Of a DNA stretch of 17,458 nucleotides, positions 1,900-13,841 are shown piece after piece. The stretch comes from Streptosporangiaceae bacterium (GTDB lineage Bacteria > Actinomycetota > Actinomycetes > Streptosporangiales > Streptosporangiaceae). The translations under genes were made by a program, and so were the position numbers. The notes beneath the pieces are model-generated. The model was not told the DNA's origin and made no database searches. It worked only from the letters and a program-made list of their open reading frames with translations. Every line of letters starts with the position of its first letter. The stretch's first letter is position 1. Location of the stretch: the NCBI GenBank assembly GCA_030045215.1, contig JASIBJ010000372.1, positions 1 through 17,458 of the forward strand. Direction: 5' to 3'.

Positions 1900-3444
1900 T
1901 CAGGTGAGGAGCCGCTCGATCGTACTCAAGGGGACGAGCCGCGTGATGGACATCTGCGCGGCTGATGCGGAAGTGCCCGCCCGGGGCGAGCTCGTCGTTG
2001 GCGAAGAGGTCGACGACCCGGACGAGCTCGGCGACGCTGAGGTGGGCGTCGGCGACGGCGTTGAAATTGTCGGTGTCGGCGACGCCTTAGTCGGCGACGG
2101 GGTTGGCTTGGCCGACTTCGACGGCGACGGCTGCGTGATCGAGCTCGGCTTCGACGACGGCGCCGCGGAGGAACTTACGGTCGACGGTGCAGGTGCGGGC
2201 GCATTGCCGTTGGTGCTGGTGGGGTTGGGTACGGGCAAGACGCCCTGGCTGGGCTGGCCGGGGAACAGCGACGAGATCGGCAGGGCGCCATGGTGGCCTC
2301 GTGCGTGGCCCCGCGGGGAGCCAGCTGCGCTGCGCGAATGATGCACGGCAGCCGCGGTGGAGGCGCCATCCGGGGTCGGCGTCGGCAGGCCGGGCGTCGT
2401 GCCGCCGGACGACGACCCGGCGAGGTACACGAGCAAGGCGACGGCGGCCAAAGCCGGCACCAGCACCGCGGCGGTTACCTTCAGCGTCTGGCCGCGGGCG
2501 CCCGGAGCGGTCCGCTGGGTCGGGAAGCCGTCGGGCCGGAGGCGGCCCACGTGCGCGAGGACGGCGTTCCGGTAACTGCGCAATTCCGGGTCGAACGCCG
2601 CCCTGGACGCGCGCCGCCACACCGACGAGGGCATTCTCGCCACCGGCATGGCCGCAGCCAGCTTGGCCCCGGATCCCTCGGGTTCCTGGCCAGACTCCTC
2701 GGCAGTGGCGGCGACGCTGTCCGCCGCCTCCCGAAACCGGTGCACGGCCCCCGCAAGCAGGGTCTGAGCGCGCTGGGCAGGGATATCGAGTATCGCGGGC
2801 AGTTCCGCCGGAGCCAGGCCGTGCCAGTACACGAGGTCCAGCACCTCGCGGTCGCGCGATGACAGCGCGCTAAAGGCCGTTAGCACCTCGCGGTCTTCCT
2901 CGGCCAGGCGGCTGAATGCCGACAGCGCCTTGCGAGCGCTAATCCTTCGCTCGGATGTGTGGGTGAGCGCGCTCAGCTCATCGGTCTCGTCGGCAGCGGC
3001 GGTCCCGGCCCGATCGGCATTCGACCGCGCCAGGCCTGCCACGGCCGCGCTGCCCGCCAGGCCAGGCTGCTCCTCGCCGCTCGCGGTGCCACCACCGGCG
3101 CCGGGCCGGGAACTGCCGTTACGGACTGCTCCGAATCCAGCGCCATCTGGCACCTTCTCCGACCGTGCCGGATGCCCGCTCGTGCACTCCCGCCGGGCCA
3201 GCGCGTACAGCCATGCCTCAAGCCGGTCGTGATTGTAGAGGTGGCCGAGCATCGCCTGAGCGGCAATGAACGTGACGGTGGTCGCTCCCGCGGCCTCGCT
3301 CTCATCGTTCAGCAGTTTGACGCAATACTCGAAAATGTATTCCGCGTATTCGCCGAAGATGTCGCTGAACGTGGCCCAGTCTGCCGACGCCCGTTCCTGA
3401 GCATCCTCCGCTGGCGTGGCGCTCGACCGGGACTGAACAGCCAT
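1900..3444 (-). CDS. Membrane-tethered sigma-70/ECF-like factor with Ser/Thr/Pro-rich tail
   Basis: The 514-residue product starts at ATG 3444, chosen because a strong GGAGGAGG lies just upstream; the frame runs on to 3657 but that stretch has no recognisable content. Residues about 25-88 look like sigma region 2 (FSDIFGEYAEYIFEYC... AWLYALARREC). After a Gly/Ala-rich spacer, residues about 170-245 look like region 4 (LSSRDREVLDLVYWHGL...LPAILDIPAQRAQTLL). Residues about 321-343 form one hydrophobic helix (VTAAVLVPALAAVALLVYLAG). The last 170 residues are almost only Ser, Thr, Pro, Ala and Gly, typical of a wall-spanning extracytoplasmic stalk. Known sigma factors direct RNA polymerase to promoters; large actinobacterial ECF groups with C-terminal membrane extensions exist, and I infer that the tail ties activity to an envelope signal. 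No anti-sigma gene is adjacent. Confidence 0.75.
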   Translation of the reverse strand: MAVQSRSSATPAEDAQERASADWATFSDIFGEYAEYIFEYCVKLLNDESEAAGATTVTFIAAQAMLGHLYNHDRLEAWLYALARRECTSGHPARSEKVPDGAGFGAVRNGSSRPGAGGGTASGEEQPGLAGSAAVAGLARSNADRAGTAAADETDELSALTHTSERRISARKALSAFSRLAEEDREVLTAFSALSSRDREVLDLVYWHGLAPAELPAILDIPAQRAQTLLAGAVHRFREAADSVAATAEESGQEPEGSGAKLAAAMPVARMPSSVWRRASRAAFDPELRSYRNAVLAHVGRLRPDGFPTQRTAPGARGQTLKVTAAVLVPALAAVALLVYLAGSSSGGTTPGLPTPTPDGASTAAAVHHSRSAAGSPRGHARGHHGALPISSLFPGQPSQGVLPVPNPTSTNGNAPAPAPSTVSSSAAPSSKPSSITQPSPSKSAKPTPSPTKASPTPTISTPSPTPTSASPSSSGSSTSSPTTSSPRAGTSASAAQMSITRLVPLSTIERLLT

Positions 3445-3904
3445 GGCCCCCCTCCTCCACCTGCAGTCTTGGGCATAACCACTCGCCGTGTCCAGATTCC
3501 GCGTGAGCCCGGCCAAGGCAGCAGCACGAACCGGGCGCGGCCGGCACGGGCCGGGCCGGCCGCTTCGCGCGCCCGGTCGGGCGGCATTGCGCGCGTGAGC
3601 GGCGCGCCTGACCCTACTTTCCAGCAATTGACCTCGAGAAGTCCGGCCAATTTGCATGCCGGCGCGTCAAGATGGTCGGATGGCTAGGAAGTTGTCTACC
3701 GGAGGCGACGTGAGCGCGCCACCCGGGCGACGACTTCCGCCGCACGCCGGAGGCAGATTACACCCGCCGCCGACTCAGGACTCGTAGGGCAGCCAGGCGG
3801 ATGGCCCCGCTGCCGGTCCGGCCGCCGCCCTGGGGCCGGCCCAGAGGCCGGGATCGGCGCACCTGCCGATGGCCGCTAACTGGTAGCACAGCGCAAGGAG
3901 AAGC
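3445..3904. other. 460-bp divergent intergenic region
   Basis: Lies between the divergent sigma-factor and fusion-enzyme genes. Visible items: the ECF-like promoter for the minus strand; a TTGACC (3628-3633) with only a poor -10 (TTTGCA, 3651) on the plus strand; a short possible leader ORF starting GTG 3710 (25 codons, stop TAG 3785-3787) behind a good GGAGG at 3701-3705; and an inverted repeat ATCGGC-6 bp-GCCGAT at 3853-3870, about 35 bp before the fusion gene start. None is proven. No other gene is supported. Confidence 0.4.
3475..3500 (-). promoter_or_regulatory. Possible ECF-type promoter of the sigma-factor gene
   Basis: Reading the minus strand, GGAAT (3500-3496) is followed after 16 bp by GTTAT (3479-3475), about 30 bp before the ATG at 3444. 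GGAA(C/T) at -35 is the hallmark of ECF-recognised promoters, with a -10 often near CGTT or GTT. This would fit autoregulation, but the motif is short and rests on one site. Confidence 0.25.
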
Positions 3905-6592
3905 ATGCCCTTCGATGTAGCCCGCGCGTTCGCGGAACGTTCCGGGGAGAACTTCGCCCTGCACGAGCAGTACATGAACCGTCAGCTCGCCAGGACACTG
4001 AAGACTCTGGGGTTCGATCGCACCTACGTCAGGGGAGAGGGCTGCTACCTCTACGACGACGCGGGCAACTCCTACCTTGACTTCCTGTCCGGATTCGGGG
4101 TCTACGCACTGGGCCGCAGCCACCCGGGCATCAAGGCGGCCCTGCACCAGGCGCTCGACCTGGACCTGCCCAACATGATCCAGCTCGATTGTGCCTTGCT
4201 GCCCGGGCTGCTCGCCGAGCAACTGGTGGCCAGGTCGCACGCCGGCATCAAGCGGGTCTTCTTCTGCAACTCCGGGGCCGAGTCGATCGAGGCGGCGATC
4301 AAGTTCGCCCGGCACTCAACGCAGCGGCCCAAGATCCTCTACGCTGAGCACGCCTTCCACGGGCTGACCACCGGAAGCCTGTCCCTGAACGGAGGCAAGG
4401 AGTTCAGGTCGGGATTCGGGGCGCTGCTCCCCGAGACCGTCCCCGTACCGTTTGGCGACCTCGGCGCCCTCGAACGCCAGCTGGCCGGAAGGGACGCGGC
4501 GGCCTTCATCGTCGAGCCGATCCAGGGCAAAGGGGTCTACTGCGCAACGGCCGAGTACTGGAAGGCCGCCCAGGAGCTGTGCCGCCGGCACGGAACGCTG
4601 CTGGTCATCGACGAAGTGCAAACCGGGCTCGGGCGGACTGGACGGTTCTTCTGCCACGAGCACTGGGGCCTGGAGCCGGACATCATCACGATCTCCAAGG
4701 CGCTGTCCGGCGGCTATGTGCCGGTCGGAGCCATGCTGACTACCGAGAAGATCTTCGCGAGCGTGTACGACTCAATGGAAGACGCGCTCAAGCACTCGAC
4801 CACGTTCGGCCGCAACCAGCTCGCCATGGTGGCCGGCCTGGCAACGCTAGCGGCCTTCGACGATGAGAACATCGTCGCCAGGGCCCAGGCTACCGGCCTG
4901 GCCCTGCAGGCCGGGCTTCGCGATCTCGCTGAGAAGTACGAGCTGATCCACGACGTCCGCGGCCTCGGGCTGATGGTCGGCATCGAGTTCGGCGAGCCGG
5001 AGGCGAAGGGAGCGGGCCGCCGGTTCCGGGCGGTCGAGCGGCTGCGACCCGGCATGTTCTCGCAGATGGTAGTCGTACCGCTATTCCACCGGCACCGGAT
5101 CCTGACCCAGGTGGCGGCGGACAACGTCAACATCGTGAAGCTGCTACCGCCGCTGATCAGCGGGCAGGAGGAGGTCGACTACTTCATCGCCGCGTTGGAC
5201 GACGTCATGGCCGACGCCCACCGCGGCTCGGGACTTGCGATCGAGTTCGGCCGCACGATGGCGCGGAACGCCCTGGGCCGCAAGCCGCAGCACCGAGCGG
5301 CGGGCTCCGGCGTCACGGCCGGCGCCGAGGACACGGAGGACCAGGCAACAGCGGTCAGCACGCTGCGCGACATCGCCGCGAGTCAGCCCCCGGCCGACCT
5401 GACCGTCCGAGGGCAACTGGCGGGGTCCGGGCCCGGCGGCACGCGTCCCGAGGCCGGCCCGGCCAGCGCAGGCAGCCTCACCGCCACAGGCAGCGCCGCC
5501 GGCACGAGCAGCATCGCCAGCACCGGTAGCTCGGTGCCGGAGGCGGCGCCGATCGATCCGGGCGATCGGGTCGTGATCACCGGCGCGTCTGGTTTCATCG
5601 GATCAGCCGTGGTCCGGGCGGTGCTCGCGAAAGGCGCCAGGGTCGTCGCCGTGACCGAGCCCGGCGCGGACGCCGCCAACCTGGCCGGGCTGGACGTCGA
5701 GCAGGTCACGGCCGACATCCGCGATGCGACCGCGCTCCGGTCGATCTGCGTGGGCGCCAGGTATGTCTTCCACCTGGCGGCGATCTACCGCTTCTGGGCG
5801 AAGGACCCGCGGATCTTCAGCGATGTCAACGTCGGCGGCACGCTGAACGTGATGGAGGCCGTCAGCGCGGCCGGGTGCCAGCGGATGGTCTACACCTCCA
5901 CCGTCGGCGTCCTCGGGCTGCGCGGCACCCGCGACGGGCGCGCTGCCGACGAGACCGCGTATGCCGACGTAGCGCACCTGTTCGGACATTACAAGCGGAC
6001 GAAGTTCGCCGCGGAGCATGAGGTGCTGCGGGCGGCCGCGGAAGGGCTCGACGTCAGCCTGGCGCTGCCGACGTTCCCGCTCGGTCCCGGCGACCGCGCG
6101 CCGACGCCGTCGGGCAAGCTCGTGCTGGACTTCCTCAACGGCCGCATGCCGGCCTACGTCGACACCGCCCTGAACGTCTGCCATGTGGACGATCTGGCGC
6201 GCGGGCACGTCGCCGCGCTCGAGCACGGGCGGAAGGGCCGCAGCTACATCCTTGGCGGCGAGAACTTGTCCATGCGCGAGATCTTGCAGACTCTGGCTGA
6301 CTGCTCGGGCCTGCCGGTGCCGCGACTGGAGGTTCCGCGCGCCGTGGTGCTGCCGACCGCCATGGCATCGGCGCTGGTGGAGGGCCGCCTGCTCCGCCGG
6401 GAGCCGCGGGTTCCGCTGGAGGGCGCGCGGATGTCCACGACAAAGATGATCTTCAATGACAACCGTGCGCGCGCGGAGATCGGGCACAAGTCCCGGCCGG
6501 CCCGGCTGGCTATCGAGGATTCGGCCCGCTGGTTCGCCGACAACGGGTACGTGACGCCGAAGCGCCTGGCGGCGATCCGCTGGCAGAAGTGA
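3905..6592 (+). CDS. HpnO-like class III aminotransferase fused to HpnA-like NAD(P)-dependent epimerase
   Basis: An 895-residue two-enzyme fusion; ATG 3905 is preceded by AAGGAG. Residues 1-455 are a class III PLP aminotransferase: CNSGAES at 121-127 binds phosphate, the Asp of IDEVQ is at 236, and the Schiff-base Lys is at 265 in ISKALSGG. FDRTYVRGEG, FLSGFGVYALGR and the C-terminal VKLLPPL pattern resemble HpnO, the aminotransferase of aminobacteriohopanetriol synthesis. Residues about 456-552 are an Ala/Gly/Ser/Thr linker. Residues 553-895 are an extended short-chain dehydrogenase: GASGFIG (560-566), Tyr696/Lys700 in YKRTK, and PTPSGKLVLDFLNGRMPAYVD plus YILGGENL as in HpnA, the hopanoid-associated epimerase/reductase. 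I infer successive steps on one cytoplasmic or membrane-associated substrate, an oxidation and transamination pair on a lipid or sugar side chain. No squalene or hopanoid gene lies in the window, so the substrate may differ. Confidence 0.85.
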   Translation: MPFDVARAFAERSGENFALHEQYMNRQLARTLKTLGFDRTYVRGEGCYLYDDAGNSYLDFLSGFGVYALGRSHPGIKAALHQALDLDLPNMIQLDCALLPGLLAEQLVARSHAGIKRVFFCNSGAESIEAAIKFARHSTQRPKILYAEHAFHGLTTGSLSLNGGKEFRSGFGALLPETVPVPFGDLGALERQLAGRDAAAFIVEPIQGKGVYCATAEYWKAAQELCRRHGTLLVIDEVQTGLGRTGRFFCHEHWGLEPDIITISKALSGGYVPVGAMLTTEKIFASVYDSMEDALKHSTTFGRNQLAMVAGLATLAAFDDENIVARAQATGLALQAGLRDLAEKYELIHDVRGLGLMVGIEFGEPEAKGAGRRFRAVERLRPGMFSQMVVVPLFHRHRILTQVAADNVNIVKLLPPLISGQEEVDYFIAALDDVMADAHRGSGLAIEFGRTMARNALGRKPQHRAAGSGVTAGAEDTEDQATAVSTLRDIAASQPPADLTVRGQLAGSGPGGTRPEAGPASAGSLTATGSAAGTSSIASTGSSVPEAAPIDPGDRVVITGASGFIGSAVVRAVLAKGARVVAVTEPGADAANLAGLDVEQVTADIRDATALRSICVGARYVFHLAAIYRFWAKDPRIFSDVNVGGTLNVMEAVSAAGCQRMVYTSTVGVLGLRGTRDGRAADETAYADVAHLFGHYKRTKFAAEHEVLRAAAEGLDVSLALPTFPLGPGDRAPTPSGKLVLDFLNGRMPAYVDTALNVCHVDDLARGHVAALEHGRKGRSYILGGENLSMREILQTLADCSGLPVPRLEVPRAVVLPTAMASALVEGRLLRREPRVPLEGARMSTTKMIFNDNRARAEIGHKSRPARLAIEDSARWFADNGYVTPKRLAAIRWQK

Positions 6593-11241: not shown

Positions 11242-11694
11242 GTGAGCCAGACCGATGCGATCGTCGAGCACATCCTGACCTCGTACGACACGATCACGGT
11301 GATCGGCGCCAGTTCCGTGGCGGCCAAGGCGGCGCACTCGGTGCCGGCGCACATGCAGCGGCACGGCTGGCGCATCATTCCCGTGAACCCGCATGCCGAC
11401 CAGATCCTCGGCGAGCGGGTCTACCGGGCGGTGGCCGACGTGCCGGAGCAGGTGGGGCTGGTCGACGTGTTCCGGCCATCGGCGCAGACGGCTGAGTTCG
11501 CCCGGCAGGCCATCGCCGCAGGCGCCACTGCGCTGTGGCTGCAGCTCGGCATCGCCTCACCGCAGGCGCGCCGCATTGCCGAGAGCGCCGGCCTGCTCTA
11601 CGTCGAAGACCGCTGCCTCGCGATCGAGCAGCGGCGCCTCGGCCTGGACGCGCCCGCTCCTGACTGCCCGCGCCGCTCTCCGGCTCGGCCTTAG
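11242..11694 (+). CDS. YccU-like CoA-binding protein
   Basis: 150 residues forming one Rossmann-like CoA_binding_2 domain. Motifs in order: VIGASS (20-25) at the nucleotide loop, IIPVNP (45-50), the VDVFRPS strand (74-80), LWLQLGI (98-104) and VEDRCLAIEQ (121-130), all typical of the YccU/YneT group. These proteins bind CoA or related ligands; their cell role is not well defined. Start is GTG 11242, inferred as leaderless because the -10-like TACGGT ends 6 bp earlier and no ribosome site exists. The last 15 residues (Pro/Arg-rich) are beyond the conserved domain. Its TAG stop overlaps the TAA of the convergent nitroreductase-YceI gene by 4 bp. Confidence 0.92.
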   Translation: MSQTDAIVEHILTSYDTITVIGASSVAAKAAHSVPAHMQRHGWRIIPVNPHADQILGERVYRAVADVPEQVGLVDVFRPSAQTAEFARQAIAAGATALWLQLGIASPQARRIAESAGLLYVEDRCLAIEQRRLGLDAPAPDCPRRSPARP

Positions 11695-12863
11695 TCCGGT
11701 GAACCGCGGTGCAGCACGACCAGAAACTCCGCGACGCCACGGTTGGCGAGTGAGCCGAGGAAACCGAAGCCGGCGGGCCCCCTGATGCCCCAGGCCGAGA
11801 ACGCTACCGGGATCGATCCAGCAGCCTCGAGGCCCAGCCCGTCCCGTCGGGCCGTGATCGAGAACGTCACCAGGCGGGAGAATCCGCGCAGCGTGAGCCG
11901 GCCGGTGCCACTCACCGTGACGGTCGTGCCAGCGGCGAAGGCGGGACCCAGCGTGACCGGCTGCGCGAGCGTGAACGTGGCCACCGGATGGTGCGCGGTG
12001 TCGAGGCTCGTGGCGAACTGAGGCTGCGTCTTGCCGCTCACGGTGACGGTAGCCAGGTCGATGCGGAACATCGCCGCTCTGACTTGGTCGCCCGACACAG
12101 TGATCGTGCCGGTGACGCCGTTCGTCCGGCCGACGACCTCGTTACTGAAGCCGAGCACGCTCTCGCCGACCCGGAAGCCCGCCTCCGATCCGGCTCCAGT
12201 GCTCCAGGTGCCGTCGAGGGGACCCACCGGGGGGCGGGCGCCGCCCGAGGGCAACGCGAGCGCGGCCGGGACCGGCTGGAGCGTGACGAACAGGCCGGCC
12301 GCCAGAACCAGCAGGAGCACGAGCGCGACCAGGCTCGCGGCAATCCACCGCCACCAGTGACGCTTCCGCGCCTGCCGACCTGGCCCGTTCTGCGGGGCGA
12401 CGCGGAACACAGGGTAGCGCGGCGCAACCGCCTCGAATCCGGCCACCGGCGCACGCCGGTCGACCGGGATGTGCGGGCGTGCCCCCGGCACCTTTTGGAG
12501 GTAGCGCTTGATGATCGGGGCGCGCTCGCTCGCCGGCACCTCGGTGAGCCTGCACTCCACCGCGCGGCCGCGGCGCAACGTCGCCCTGCCCCCGGCGGCG
12601 CGCACGTTCTGGACCCAGTTGCACCGCTCGCCGAGGAACGACACCAGATACCACTGCCCCTCCCGATCGGCCATTCCCAGCGGGAACCGCGCGACCCGTC
12701 CCGAGCGGCGGCCCGTGACCTCGAGCGTCACCCACCGTCTCGGCATCAGCCCCAGCCCAATTACCCCGGCCCACATCCGGGCGAGACGACGTGCGGTCGC
12801 GTCGGCACGGCCTCCTGGGTACATGGCCCGGAGCCTCTCATCGCTATAAGGCCAGCTACGCAT
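11691..12863 (-). CDS. F420-type nitroreductase/quinone reductase domain fused to TM helix and YceI domain
   Basis: A 390-residue fusion, starting at ATG 12863 behind AGGAGG (12874-12869). The longer open frame to 13502 is rejected because it runs through the TetR gene. Residues about 40-156 match the Ddn-like deazaflavin-dependent nitroreductase family (VTLEVTGRRSGRVARFPLG, WYLVSFLGERCNWVQNVRA, PVFRV), whose characterised members use F420H2 and include menaquinone reductases. RKRHWWRW then leads into one TM helix (about 172-194), with positive charges on the inner side, so the C-terminal part should be outside. Residues about 216-386 match YceI (LDGTWSTGAGSEAGFRV, FRIDLATVTVSG, SLDTAHHPVATFTL, ITARRDGLGLEAAG), a lipocalin-like fold that binds polyisoprenoids. 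I infer a membrane protein pairing inside redox chemistry with an outside isoprenoid or quinone pocket. Divergent from a TetR gene, its likely regulator. Confidence 0.85.
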   Translation of the reverse strand: MRSWPYSDERLRAMYPGGRADATARRLARMWAGVIGLGLMPRRWVTLEVTGRRSGRVARFPLGMADREGQWYLVSFLGERCNWVQNVRAAGGRATLRRGRAVECRLTEVPASERAPIIKRYLQKVPGARPHIPVDRRAPVAGFEAVAPRYPVFRVAPQNGPGRQARKRHWWRWIAASLVALVLLLVLAAGLFVTLQPVPAALALPSGGARPPVGPLDGTWSTGAGSEAGFRVGESVLGFSNEVVGRTNGVTGTITVSGDQVRAAMFRIDLATVTVSGKTQPQFATSLDTAHHPVATFTLAQPVTLGPAFAAGTTVTVSGTGRLTLRGFSRLVTFSITARRDGLGLEAAGSIPVAFSAWGIRGPAGFGFLGSLANRGVAEFLVVLHRGSPD

Positions 12864-12910
12864 TGCTTCCTCCTCGTGCCGCCGGTGAGCCGCCGGTTCC
12901 GGACGACTCG

Positions 12911-12955
12911 TCTCGGGTATCCTGAGGTCAGAATCTCGAATACGAAACTTGAAAC
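12911..12955. promoter_or_regulatory. Candidate operator region between nitroreductase-YceI and TetR genes
   Basis: The 126-bp divergent gap holds an AT-richer stretch unlike its surroundings. Inside are a direct repeat TCTCGGGTAT (12911-12920) / TCTCGAATAC (12934-12943), start to start 23 bp, and a tandem GAAAC (12944-12948, 12951-12955). TTGAAA (12949-12954) followed after 17 bp by TAAGGC could be the TetR promoter; TAGAGT (12957-12962) is another -10 candidate. I see no clean palindrome of the usual TetR type. Confidence 0.3.
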
Positions 12956-12989
12956 ATAGAGTCTTAAGTCCTAAGGCAGGTGCCCAGCG

Positions 12990-13841
12990 ATGGACCACTC
13001 CCAGGCGCCAACGGGCCTGGCCCGGCGTGCGCGCAGGCTGTCTGACCACGAGACCGAGCAGCGCATGCTTCAGGCGGCCGTCGCCATGGTGAATCGTGCC
13101 GGCCTGACCGTGAGCCTGGATCACATCAGCCTCGAGGAGGTCATCCGCGACGCCGACGTCTCGCGCAGCGCGGTCTATCGGCGCTGGCCGTACAAGGACC
13201 TGTTCTTCAGCGACCTCGTCAAGGAGCTGGCCCTGGGCGCCACCCCGACGATTGTCGATGACGAGCTCGCCCTGATCAGGCGCATCGTGGCCGAGCGCCC
13301 GGACGCGCTGGACACCCCCGAGCAGCGCCACGGCCTGGTACTCGAGCTCGTCCGCCGGCTCGCGTTGTTCGACTTCGAGACCCTTTCCGGGTCGTTGCAG
13401 TGGCGTACCTACCTCGCCCTGCAAGCGACGTTCGCGAGCCTTCCCGACGGCGAGCTGCGAGATCAGGTCCGGGCAGCGCTGGCCCAGTCCGAGCACGACC
13501 ACCGGGCCCAGGTCGCCAGGGCCTGGCAGCGTCTGGCGGGACTGCTCGGTTACCGGCTGCGGCCCGATCTCGGGGCTACGTTTGAGACGCTGGCCACGCT
13601 GGTGGACGCGACCATGCGCGGGCTGGTCATCGAGGCCCTGTCCGAGCCTGGGCTGGGCACCTACCGGGCGCGGGCCATTCCCTCCGGGGCCGGGAAACCG
13701 CAGGAGTGGTCCCTGGCCAGCCTGGGCGTGGCAAGTATCGCCTTGGCGTTCCTTGAGCCTGACCCGGCGATCGAGTGGGATGGCGAGCGACTCGCCCGCG
13801 CCTACGAGGCACTGAACAATCTGACCCTCCGGGAGGAATGA
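12990..13841 (+). CDS. TetR/AcrR family transcriptional regulator
   Basis: 283 residues, longer than the usual 190-220 for the family. The N-terminal DNA-binding domain spans about 22-80; the helix-turn-helix is SLEEVIRDADVSRSAVYRRWPYKDLF-like around 47-72, with the typical VYRRWPYKD end of the recognition helix. The large C-terminal part is the ligand-binding, dimerising domain; its ligand cannot be read. Start is ATG 12990, with AAGGCAGG about 10 bp upstream. TetR proteins usually repress a divergent neighbour and themselves, so the nitroreductase-YceI gene 126 bp away is the expected target. The downstream Acg-type gene has its own promoter region, so it is a less likely target. Confidence 0.93.
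   Translation: MDHSQAPTGLARRARRLSDHETEQRMLQAAVAMVNRAGLTVSLDHISLEEVIRDADVSRSAVYRRWPYKDLFFSDLVKELALGATPTIVDDELALIRRIVAERPDALDTPEQRHGLVLELVRRLALFDFETLSGSLQWRTYLALQATFASLPDGELRDQVRAALAQSEHDHRAQVARAWQRLAGLLGYRLRPDLGATFETLATLVDATMRGLVIEALSEPGLGTYRARAIPSGAGKPQEWSLASLGVASIALAFLEPDPAIEWDGERLARAYEALNNLTLREE

Follow-up and report, generated by a model that had tools for sequence, protein, structure and literature searches.

Why would an aminotransferase resembling HpnO and a reductase or epimerase resembling HpnA, both known from the biosynthesis of hopanoids (bacterial lipids similar to cholesterol), be encoded as one protein, and which reactions would such a protein carry out? The question is raised by a gene of a soil actinobacterium of Streptosporangiaceae (assembly GCA_030045215.1, contig JASIBJ010000372.1), located in a stretch of 17,458 nucleotides, which was analysed at its full length and is referred to as the window. 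Our analysis suggests that the product is probably a bifunctional enzyme which finishes the side chains of hopanoids and thereby determines the proportion of amino to hydroxy forms.

Translation of positions 3905–6592 of the plus strand yields a single open reading frame of 895 codons, with ATG at 3905 and a stop codon ending at 6592, and the G+C content at codon positions 1, 2 and 3 (0.69, 0.49 and 0.89) is of the coding type. The protein matches two Pfam families, Aminotran_3 (aa 40–434, E-value 4.7e-90) and Epimerase (aa 556–784, E-value 9.9e-32), and the initial annotation of the locus as one 895-residue aminotransferase-epimerase protein is thereby borne out. The same annotation claimed a complete active site in each half, and the residues in question are indeed present and invariant in 30/30 aligned fusions, namely K265 in the aminotransferase half (invariant also in 11/11 of its unfused relatives) and G560-A561-x-G563-F564-I565-G566, Y696 and K700 in the short-chain dehydrogenase/reductase (SDR) half, with residue 562 being S in 19 fusions, A in 9 and T in 2 (Table 1). 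Comparison of the window gene with six other fusion genes gave ratios of nonsynonymous to synonymous substitution rates (dN/dS) of 0.05–0.18 for the aminotransferase half and 0.06–0.19 for the SDR half, which indicates at the level of codons that purifying selection acts on both halves.

The fusion is a real and widespread gene, not unique to the window. The search with the whole protein returned 638 matches, 120 of which were listed, one being the window's own protein; all 119 of the other homologs listed carry both Pfam domains (length 826–948 aa), and among the matches listed the fusion is retained across lineages down to 72% identity. The organism, where given among these matches, is Streptosporangiaceae or is shortened to 'Strepto', and the names in the source reflect one half only ('ornithine--oxo-acid transaminase' or 'hopanoid-associated sugar epimerase'). 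The sets of whole genomes revealed the one-frame fusion in 8 genomes (G001, G002, G003, G004, G008, G200, G212 and G221), including one version 89% identical to that of the window (G003), one with the SDR half interrupted by the end of the contig (G221) and one split across two contigs, the larger piece of which is still fused (G004). These 8 genomes together with the 119 listed two-domain homologs rule out an artefact of a single assembly. In the order of G008, HpnA scored over its cut-off in 0/150 genomes (367.0 bits in G008 itself, 237 in the next), hence HpnA of the fusion type is rare there. The fusion is already present in databases under partial names, and no title or abstract on an HpnO-HpnA fusion was found among the open-licence PMC papers searched; in the accessible portion of PMC12583986 the words 'fusion' and 'fused' are absent, and in that of PMC5462960, which covers 12 of 15 occurrences, they refer only to hpnCD, laboratory equipment and the like.

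The two halves are joined by a segment which the initial annotation described as a low-complexity linker of about 95 residues. Its presence and low complexity are confirmed, and its counted length is 90, near the original figure. In 30 fusions its length ranges between 34 and 143 residues and its composition is biased towards A, G, P and S, and the alignment of 20 fusions reveals no invariant column between positions 460 and 553. Its dN/dS, from the same six comparisons, is 0.37–1.15, and the AlphaFold model of the monomer (mean predicted local distance difference test, pLDDT, 78; predicted template modelling score 0.51) shows pLDDT <50 over aa 458–544. The linker is therefore, according to these predictions, a disordered and flexible tether between two intact enzymes. 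The proposal that the fusion serves substrate channelling was not upheld: with a linker that is unconserved, variable in length and disordered in the monomer model, we rejected channelling via a conserved linker, and the monomer model lends no support to a tunnel or a fixed interface.

The profile HMM analysis assigned the SDR half to TIGR03466 (HpnA, hopanoid-associated sugar epimerase) with 370.3 bits for the whole protein and 373.7 bits for the half alone, over the curated cut-off of 367.65, with both the GxxGxxG and the YxxxK motif invariant. The margin is small, and only 3/10 of the Streptosporangiaceae genomes with HpnA at E<=1e-80 pass the cut-off, the others scoring 351–367 bits. The window's version differs from other HpnA proteins in being fused, and from Gox2253 (3wj7 in the PDB), its best solved relative, in having Glu (E585) in place of Arg at the coenzyme site; Glu occupies this position in 28/30 fusions and 8/9 unfused HpnA proteins. 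The second NCBIfam match is the model of SdmB, the reductase of sterol C-4 demethylation, although with 199 bits it falls well short of the cut-off of 600. According to the available parts of PMC10202945 and PMC6385002, SdmB reduces a sterol 3-ketone, thus an SDR of this kind can handle polycyclic triterpenoids. Plant cinnamoyl-CoA, dihydroflavonol and vestitone reductases are also related to the SDR half. A second copy of HpnA in G001 (L143, G001:C225) is interrupted by the end of the contig and groups with unlinked HpnA.

The aminotransferase half is a class III pyridoxal phosphate (PLP)-dependent enzyme, and its link to HpnO comes from gene neighborhood, from which we infer that it is of the HpnO type. 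In G207 an aminotransferase 55% identical to the window's N-terminal half directly follows hpnH in the operon hpnC-hpnD-hpnE-prenyl synthase-shc-hpnG/ispH-hpnH-aminotransferase-dihydropteroate synthase, and in G379 a homolog with 60% identity begins about 3 kb from hpnC of an hpn cluster (hpnC, D, E, shc, hpnG/ispH, hpnH), on the strand opposite to it. Homologs with 52–57% identity occur mostly in genomes with squalene-hopene cyclase (SHC) or HpnH. The HpnO-like and HpnA-like identities proposed initially therefore both hold, the former through a clade that includes a member from an hpn operon. Membership in the ArgD family was considered and rejected: the half scores 297.5 bits against TIGR00707 (cut-off 410.05), and a tree of 43 rows separates the 40 fused, paired and operon-type aminotransferases from three ArgD-like rows (support 93/96); two of the latter are from genomes that carry the fusion, and one of the three sits on a long branch. 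Placement within the acetylornithine aminotransferase clade, which would have spoken against the initial proposal, was thus not observed, and separate ArgD-like genes (about 40% identical) coexist with the fusion in its genomes. The fused and paired aminotransferases are separated from the hpn-operon type by a branch of 0.74, and so a difference in substrate between the two types is possible. The nearest NCBIfam model is PigE (408.6 bits), below its cut-off of 850, yet the aminotransferase domain of PigE (4ppm in the PDB) is the best solved relative, with 36% identity. PigE aminates an aldehyde carbon, and its other half is not known to be an SDR.

The initial annotation found no other hpn gene in the window, and this holds, as searches for HpnC, HpnD, HpnE, SHC, HpnG-IspH and HpnH with thresholds of E<=1e-20 and 150 bits found no match in it. 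The relationship to hopanoids was assessed in 200 genomes of Streptosporangiaceae (the family of G003; the window's own assembly is outside the gene-content counts), with thresholds of E<=1e-80 for HpnA and E<=1e-75 for the aminotransferase, and with all SHC matches over the curated cut-off. SHC is present in 81/200 genomes, including 8/8 with the fusion, compared with 73/192 of the others (p 6e-4), and the absence of hopanoid genes from every genome with the fusion, which would have contradicted the proposal, is not what was observed. The suggested search for hpnH and hpnG succeeded in part: HpnH is over the cut-off in 5 of the 8 fusion genomes and partial at contig ends in two (G001 and G002), and HpnG is found in 7/8, in each case below the cut-off and with a model that also matches 6/14 control genomes. 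These HpnG-like matches adjoin SHC, and 6/7 are in one frame with IspH, while in G001 the contig ends. All 10 genomes with HpnA have SHC, compared with 71/190 of the rest (p 8e-5), and the link persists after removal of the five genomes to which the fusion itself had led (5/5 with SHC, p 0.008). The HpnO-like aminotransferase is present in 30/200 genomes (31 before exclusion of G033, with 40% identity and ArgD-like), 26 of which have SHC and 29 SHC or HpnH, compared with 56/170 (p 1e-11); for its unfused form SHC was found in 18/22 genomes (p 1e-5). HpnA is accompanied by HpnO in 10/10 genomes, which is largely trivial because 7 of them carry the fusion.

The sequence relationships suggest how the fusion originated. 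In the family of G005 (henceforth Acidimicrobiaceae-type), 69 of 150 genomes contain an hpnO-hpnA pair or part of it (E<=1e-90) and 31 contain SHC, and the pair is found in 30/31 of the SHC genomes (p 2e-11). Both genes adjoin in 47 of 50 loci, and in 45/47 (10/10 in the first set of loci) the stop codon of hpnO overlaps the start of hpnA in exactly the four-base sequence NTGA. The remaining three loci, L011 (G010), L245 (G379) and L254 (G354), lack an intact HpnA next to the aminotransferase; in G010 remnants of HpnA similarity persist. Both fused halves form single clades (support 99/94 and 99/98), and the fused aminotransferase half nests among the paired genes, hence the most parsimonious history is that a coupled pair was fused once; a single clade of fused and paired HpnA halves is not rejected (p-AU 0.33). 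The fusion thus probably arose once from an overlapping hpnO-hpnA pair. Within the fusion's clade of the aminotransferase tree 12/14 pair genomes are SHC-positive, compared with 8/35 elsewhere (the partial row of G016 excluded), with the caveat that the clade was picked after viewing the tree.

Could the fusion simply have joined two neighboring genes whose products act in unrelated steps, with no functional coupling? A linker conserved in nothing beyond composition would agree with this, as would the unlinked HpnA and HpnO of G181, G242 and G245, which lie on separate contigs, the HpnO being of the operon type. However, the overlap is kept in nearly all adjoining pairs, the fusion persists in the diverged lineages among the matches listed, and unfused HpnA is accompanied by HpnO in 3/3 genomes, compared with 19/189 of the others (p 0.0013), which makes an uncoupled fusion very unlikely in our view. 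The fusion and the overlap alike are best accommodated by an aminotransferase and an SDR that share one aldehyde/alcohol end group as their target.

The accessible parts of two papers provide the biochemical frame. HpnO converts ribosylhopane to aminobacteriohopanetriol (PMC12583986), and this 2025 study states as open both the enzyme that converts ribosylhopane to bacteriohopanetetrol (BHT) and the function of HpnA. HpnA has been proposed for the latter step in PMC5462960, which, however, cites evidence that it is not essential in B. cenocepacia. In the bifunctional enzyme that we propose, the N-terminal HpnO-type half would aminate the terminus of the side chain, yielding aminobacteriohopanetriol from the open aldehyde form of ribosylhopane, and the C-terminal HpnA half would convert ribosylhopane and BHT, the aldehyde and alcohol versions of this terminus, into one another, whereby one polypeptide would set the balance of amino and hydroxy hopanoids. 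The flexible tether would hold the two enzymes at fixed 1:1 amounts, and the gene would descend from a coupled hpnO-hpnA pair like that still found in Acidimicrobiaceae-type genomes. That the substrate in the window's organism is a hopanoid we infer from the gene content, and we propose the bond acted on by HpnA and the direction of the reaction with less assurance. A precedent for the fusion of neighboring hpn genes is hpnC-hpnD of subdivision 2 Acidobacteria, which concerns a different step of the pathway (described in the available part of PMC5462960).

Several observations weigh against this reading, and the first of them concern the chemistry of the SDR half. By the general rules for SDRs, Glu at the coenzyme position favours NAD(H), so the E585 site points to NAD(H), which is unusual for a biosynthetic reductase; the SDR half may consequently be a dehydrogenase that returns BHT to the aldehyde. 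Glu would also fit NAD bound as in epimerases of the GalE type, and, given that the curated name of TIGR03466 is a sugar epimerase and that the second-best solved relative, 2x4g, was deposited as a nucleotide-sugar epimerase, the SDR half could be an epimerase or another stereochemical editor of the polyol chain, acting before or after the amination, rather than an oxidoreductase. We regard this as unlikely, since the GalE model gave only 64 bits (cut-off 262), compared with 199 for SdmB and 115 for the OleD reductase, both also below their cut-offs, and since 3wj7 was deposited as a putative oxidoreductase; overall the half is more similar to ketone and aldehyde reductases than to GalE.

The second group of observations concerns the substrate. 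SHC is missing from 39/69 of the Acidimicrobiaceae-type genomes with the pair, and incompleteness of metagenome-assembled genomes may account for some of them, in our judgement not for most; HpnH was not found over the cut-off in G006, G009 and G012, the only SHC-negative genomes searched for it. Therefore, a shared substrate, as implied by the initial annotation, is likely, though not necessarily a hopanoid in every case. Furthermore, 12/50 loci have homologs of an N,N-dimethyl-4-nitrosoaniline (NDMA)-dependent alcohol dehydrogenase and MftR upstream of the pair and on its strand; 11 of these 12 loci also contain MftC and 9 a mycofactocin OYE (the mycofactocin family models, run on the representative L227, all scored over their cut-offs), and 10 of the 12 genomes are SHC-negative. 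Perhaps, then, the aminotransferase-SDR unit is a general module for conversion of alcohols or aldehydes to amines, which in SHC-less Acidimicrobiaceae-type genomes takes its aldehyde from the mycofactocin-dependent alcohol dehydrogenase, the hopanoid being one of several substrates? We consider this rather unlikely: all 12 mycofactocin loci fall into one clade of 16 tree rows, distinct from that of the fusion, SHC is present in two of these 12 genomes, the pair accompanies SHC almost without exception in its family, and no mycofactocin gene was found in the window or at the seven fusion loci checked, the whole genomes not having been searched for them. A version that combines both ideas, in which HpnA is an NAD(H)-linked ribosylhopane/BHT oxidoreductase tied to HpnO, with amine and alcohol interconverted, and in which a mycofactocin-linked alcohol-to-amine route of hopanoid-less relatives was either the source or the recipient of the unit, is possible but rather unlikely.

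The proposed role in finishing hopanoid side chains has also to accommodate the distribution of the genes. SHC is on a different contig from the fusion in 8/8 fusion genomes; in Alphaproteobacteria hpnO is typically outside the hpn cluster, according to the available part of PMC12583986. One fusion genome, G003, has SHC and no match to either HpnH or HpnG, and all three Acidimicrobiaceae-type genomes without an intact adjacent HpnA (G010, G379 and G354) are SHC-positive. At the thresholds used, 71/81 SHC genomes of Streptosporangiaceae lack HpnA of the fusion type, which therefore is not the general BHT-forming reductase of this family, and 55/81 lack the HpnO-like aminotransferase; a search of the SHC clusters (18–19 kb each) of ten genomes that lack a close HpnO revealed nothing similar to the aminotransferase half at E<=1e-8. 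In Alphaproteobacteria, as far as the accessible text of PMC12583986 goes, hpnA is present in 42/48 hpnH genomes and hpnO is confined to part of Hyphomicrobiales, hence HpnA does not depend on HpnO everywhere.

On genetic grounds, the fusion and the translational overlap with HpnO hint that HpnA takes the same molecule as HpnO or a neighboring one, and the fusion allows both activities to be assayed with a single protein, which makes the function of HpnA testable. The presence of the pair in genomes without SHC is a warning against the use of hpnO and hpnA homologs as markers of hopanoids in metagenomes.

A second fusion in the pathway was noticed in the course of the analysis: in 21 of the genomes examined, one frame beside shc encodes IspH together with an HpnG-like domain that scores below the curated cut-off (Table 1), and 7 other genomes show the HpnG-like part only, two of them at the end of a contig or locus. 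The prenyl synthase of the hpn operon in G207 (L172:4868-5881) has as its best match the model of the family 2 encapsulin cargo polyprenyl transferase (423.6 bits, cut-off 450).

Table 1. Features of the fused gene in the window and of related loci; positions without a locus name refer to the window
Feature	Position	Strand	Basis or remark
HpnO-like class III PLP aminotransferase half, residues 1-455	3905..5269	+	Pfam PF00202
Catalytic lysine K265	4697-4699	+	within aminotransferase half
Low-complexity linker rich in A/G/P/S, residues 462-552	5288..5560	+	alignment, pLDDT, dN/dS
HpnA-like extended SDR half, residues 553-895	5561..6589	+	TIGR03466, motif residues, dN/dS
GASGFIG motif	5582-5602	+	SDR half
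E585, coenzyme-site Glu	5657-5659	+	SDR half
Y696	5990-5992	+	SDR half
K700	6002-6004	+	SDR half
Stop codon of fused gene	6590..6592	+	translation
hpnO-hpnA pair downstream of MftR and NDMA-dependent alcohol dehydrogenase	L227:8437-18723	mostly opposite to MftC and mycofactocin OYE	11 other loci alike
HpnG-IspH frame	L172:7821-9359	+	beside shc
HpnG-IspH frame, further loci			L175, L177, L181, L182, L185, L187, L190, L195, L197, L199-L201, L207-L209, L213, L214, L218, L219, L245

The comparison of the gene neighborhood of the fusion loci did not reveal any functional clue. The window's neighboring genes are common mainly to its closest relatives (L002, L003, L004 and L016), and its MFS gene has distant matches also in four pair loci. 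The fusion loci L001, L009, L178 and L179 share an upstream gene, which is DNA polymerase III alpha in L178 and L179, with another gene intervening in the latter. On the minus strand of the window, positions 1900-3657 encode a 585-aa protein with weak similarity, below the cut-offs, to extracytoplasmic function (ECF) sigma-70 factors (about aa 90–313), whose long C-terminal part is unmatched; among the loci compared the protein was matched only in L003 and L016. Also on the minus strand, a 603-aa frame (11691-13502) combines a domain like F420H2-dependent quinone reductases (aa 244–352) with a YceI-like domain (aa 437–574), and is possibly another fusion.

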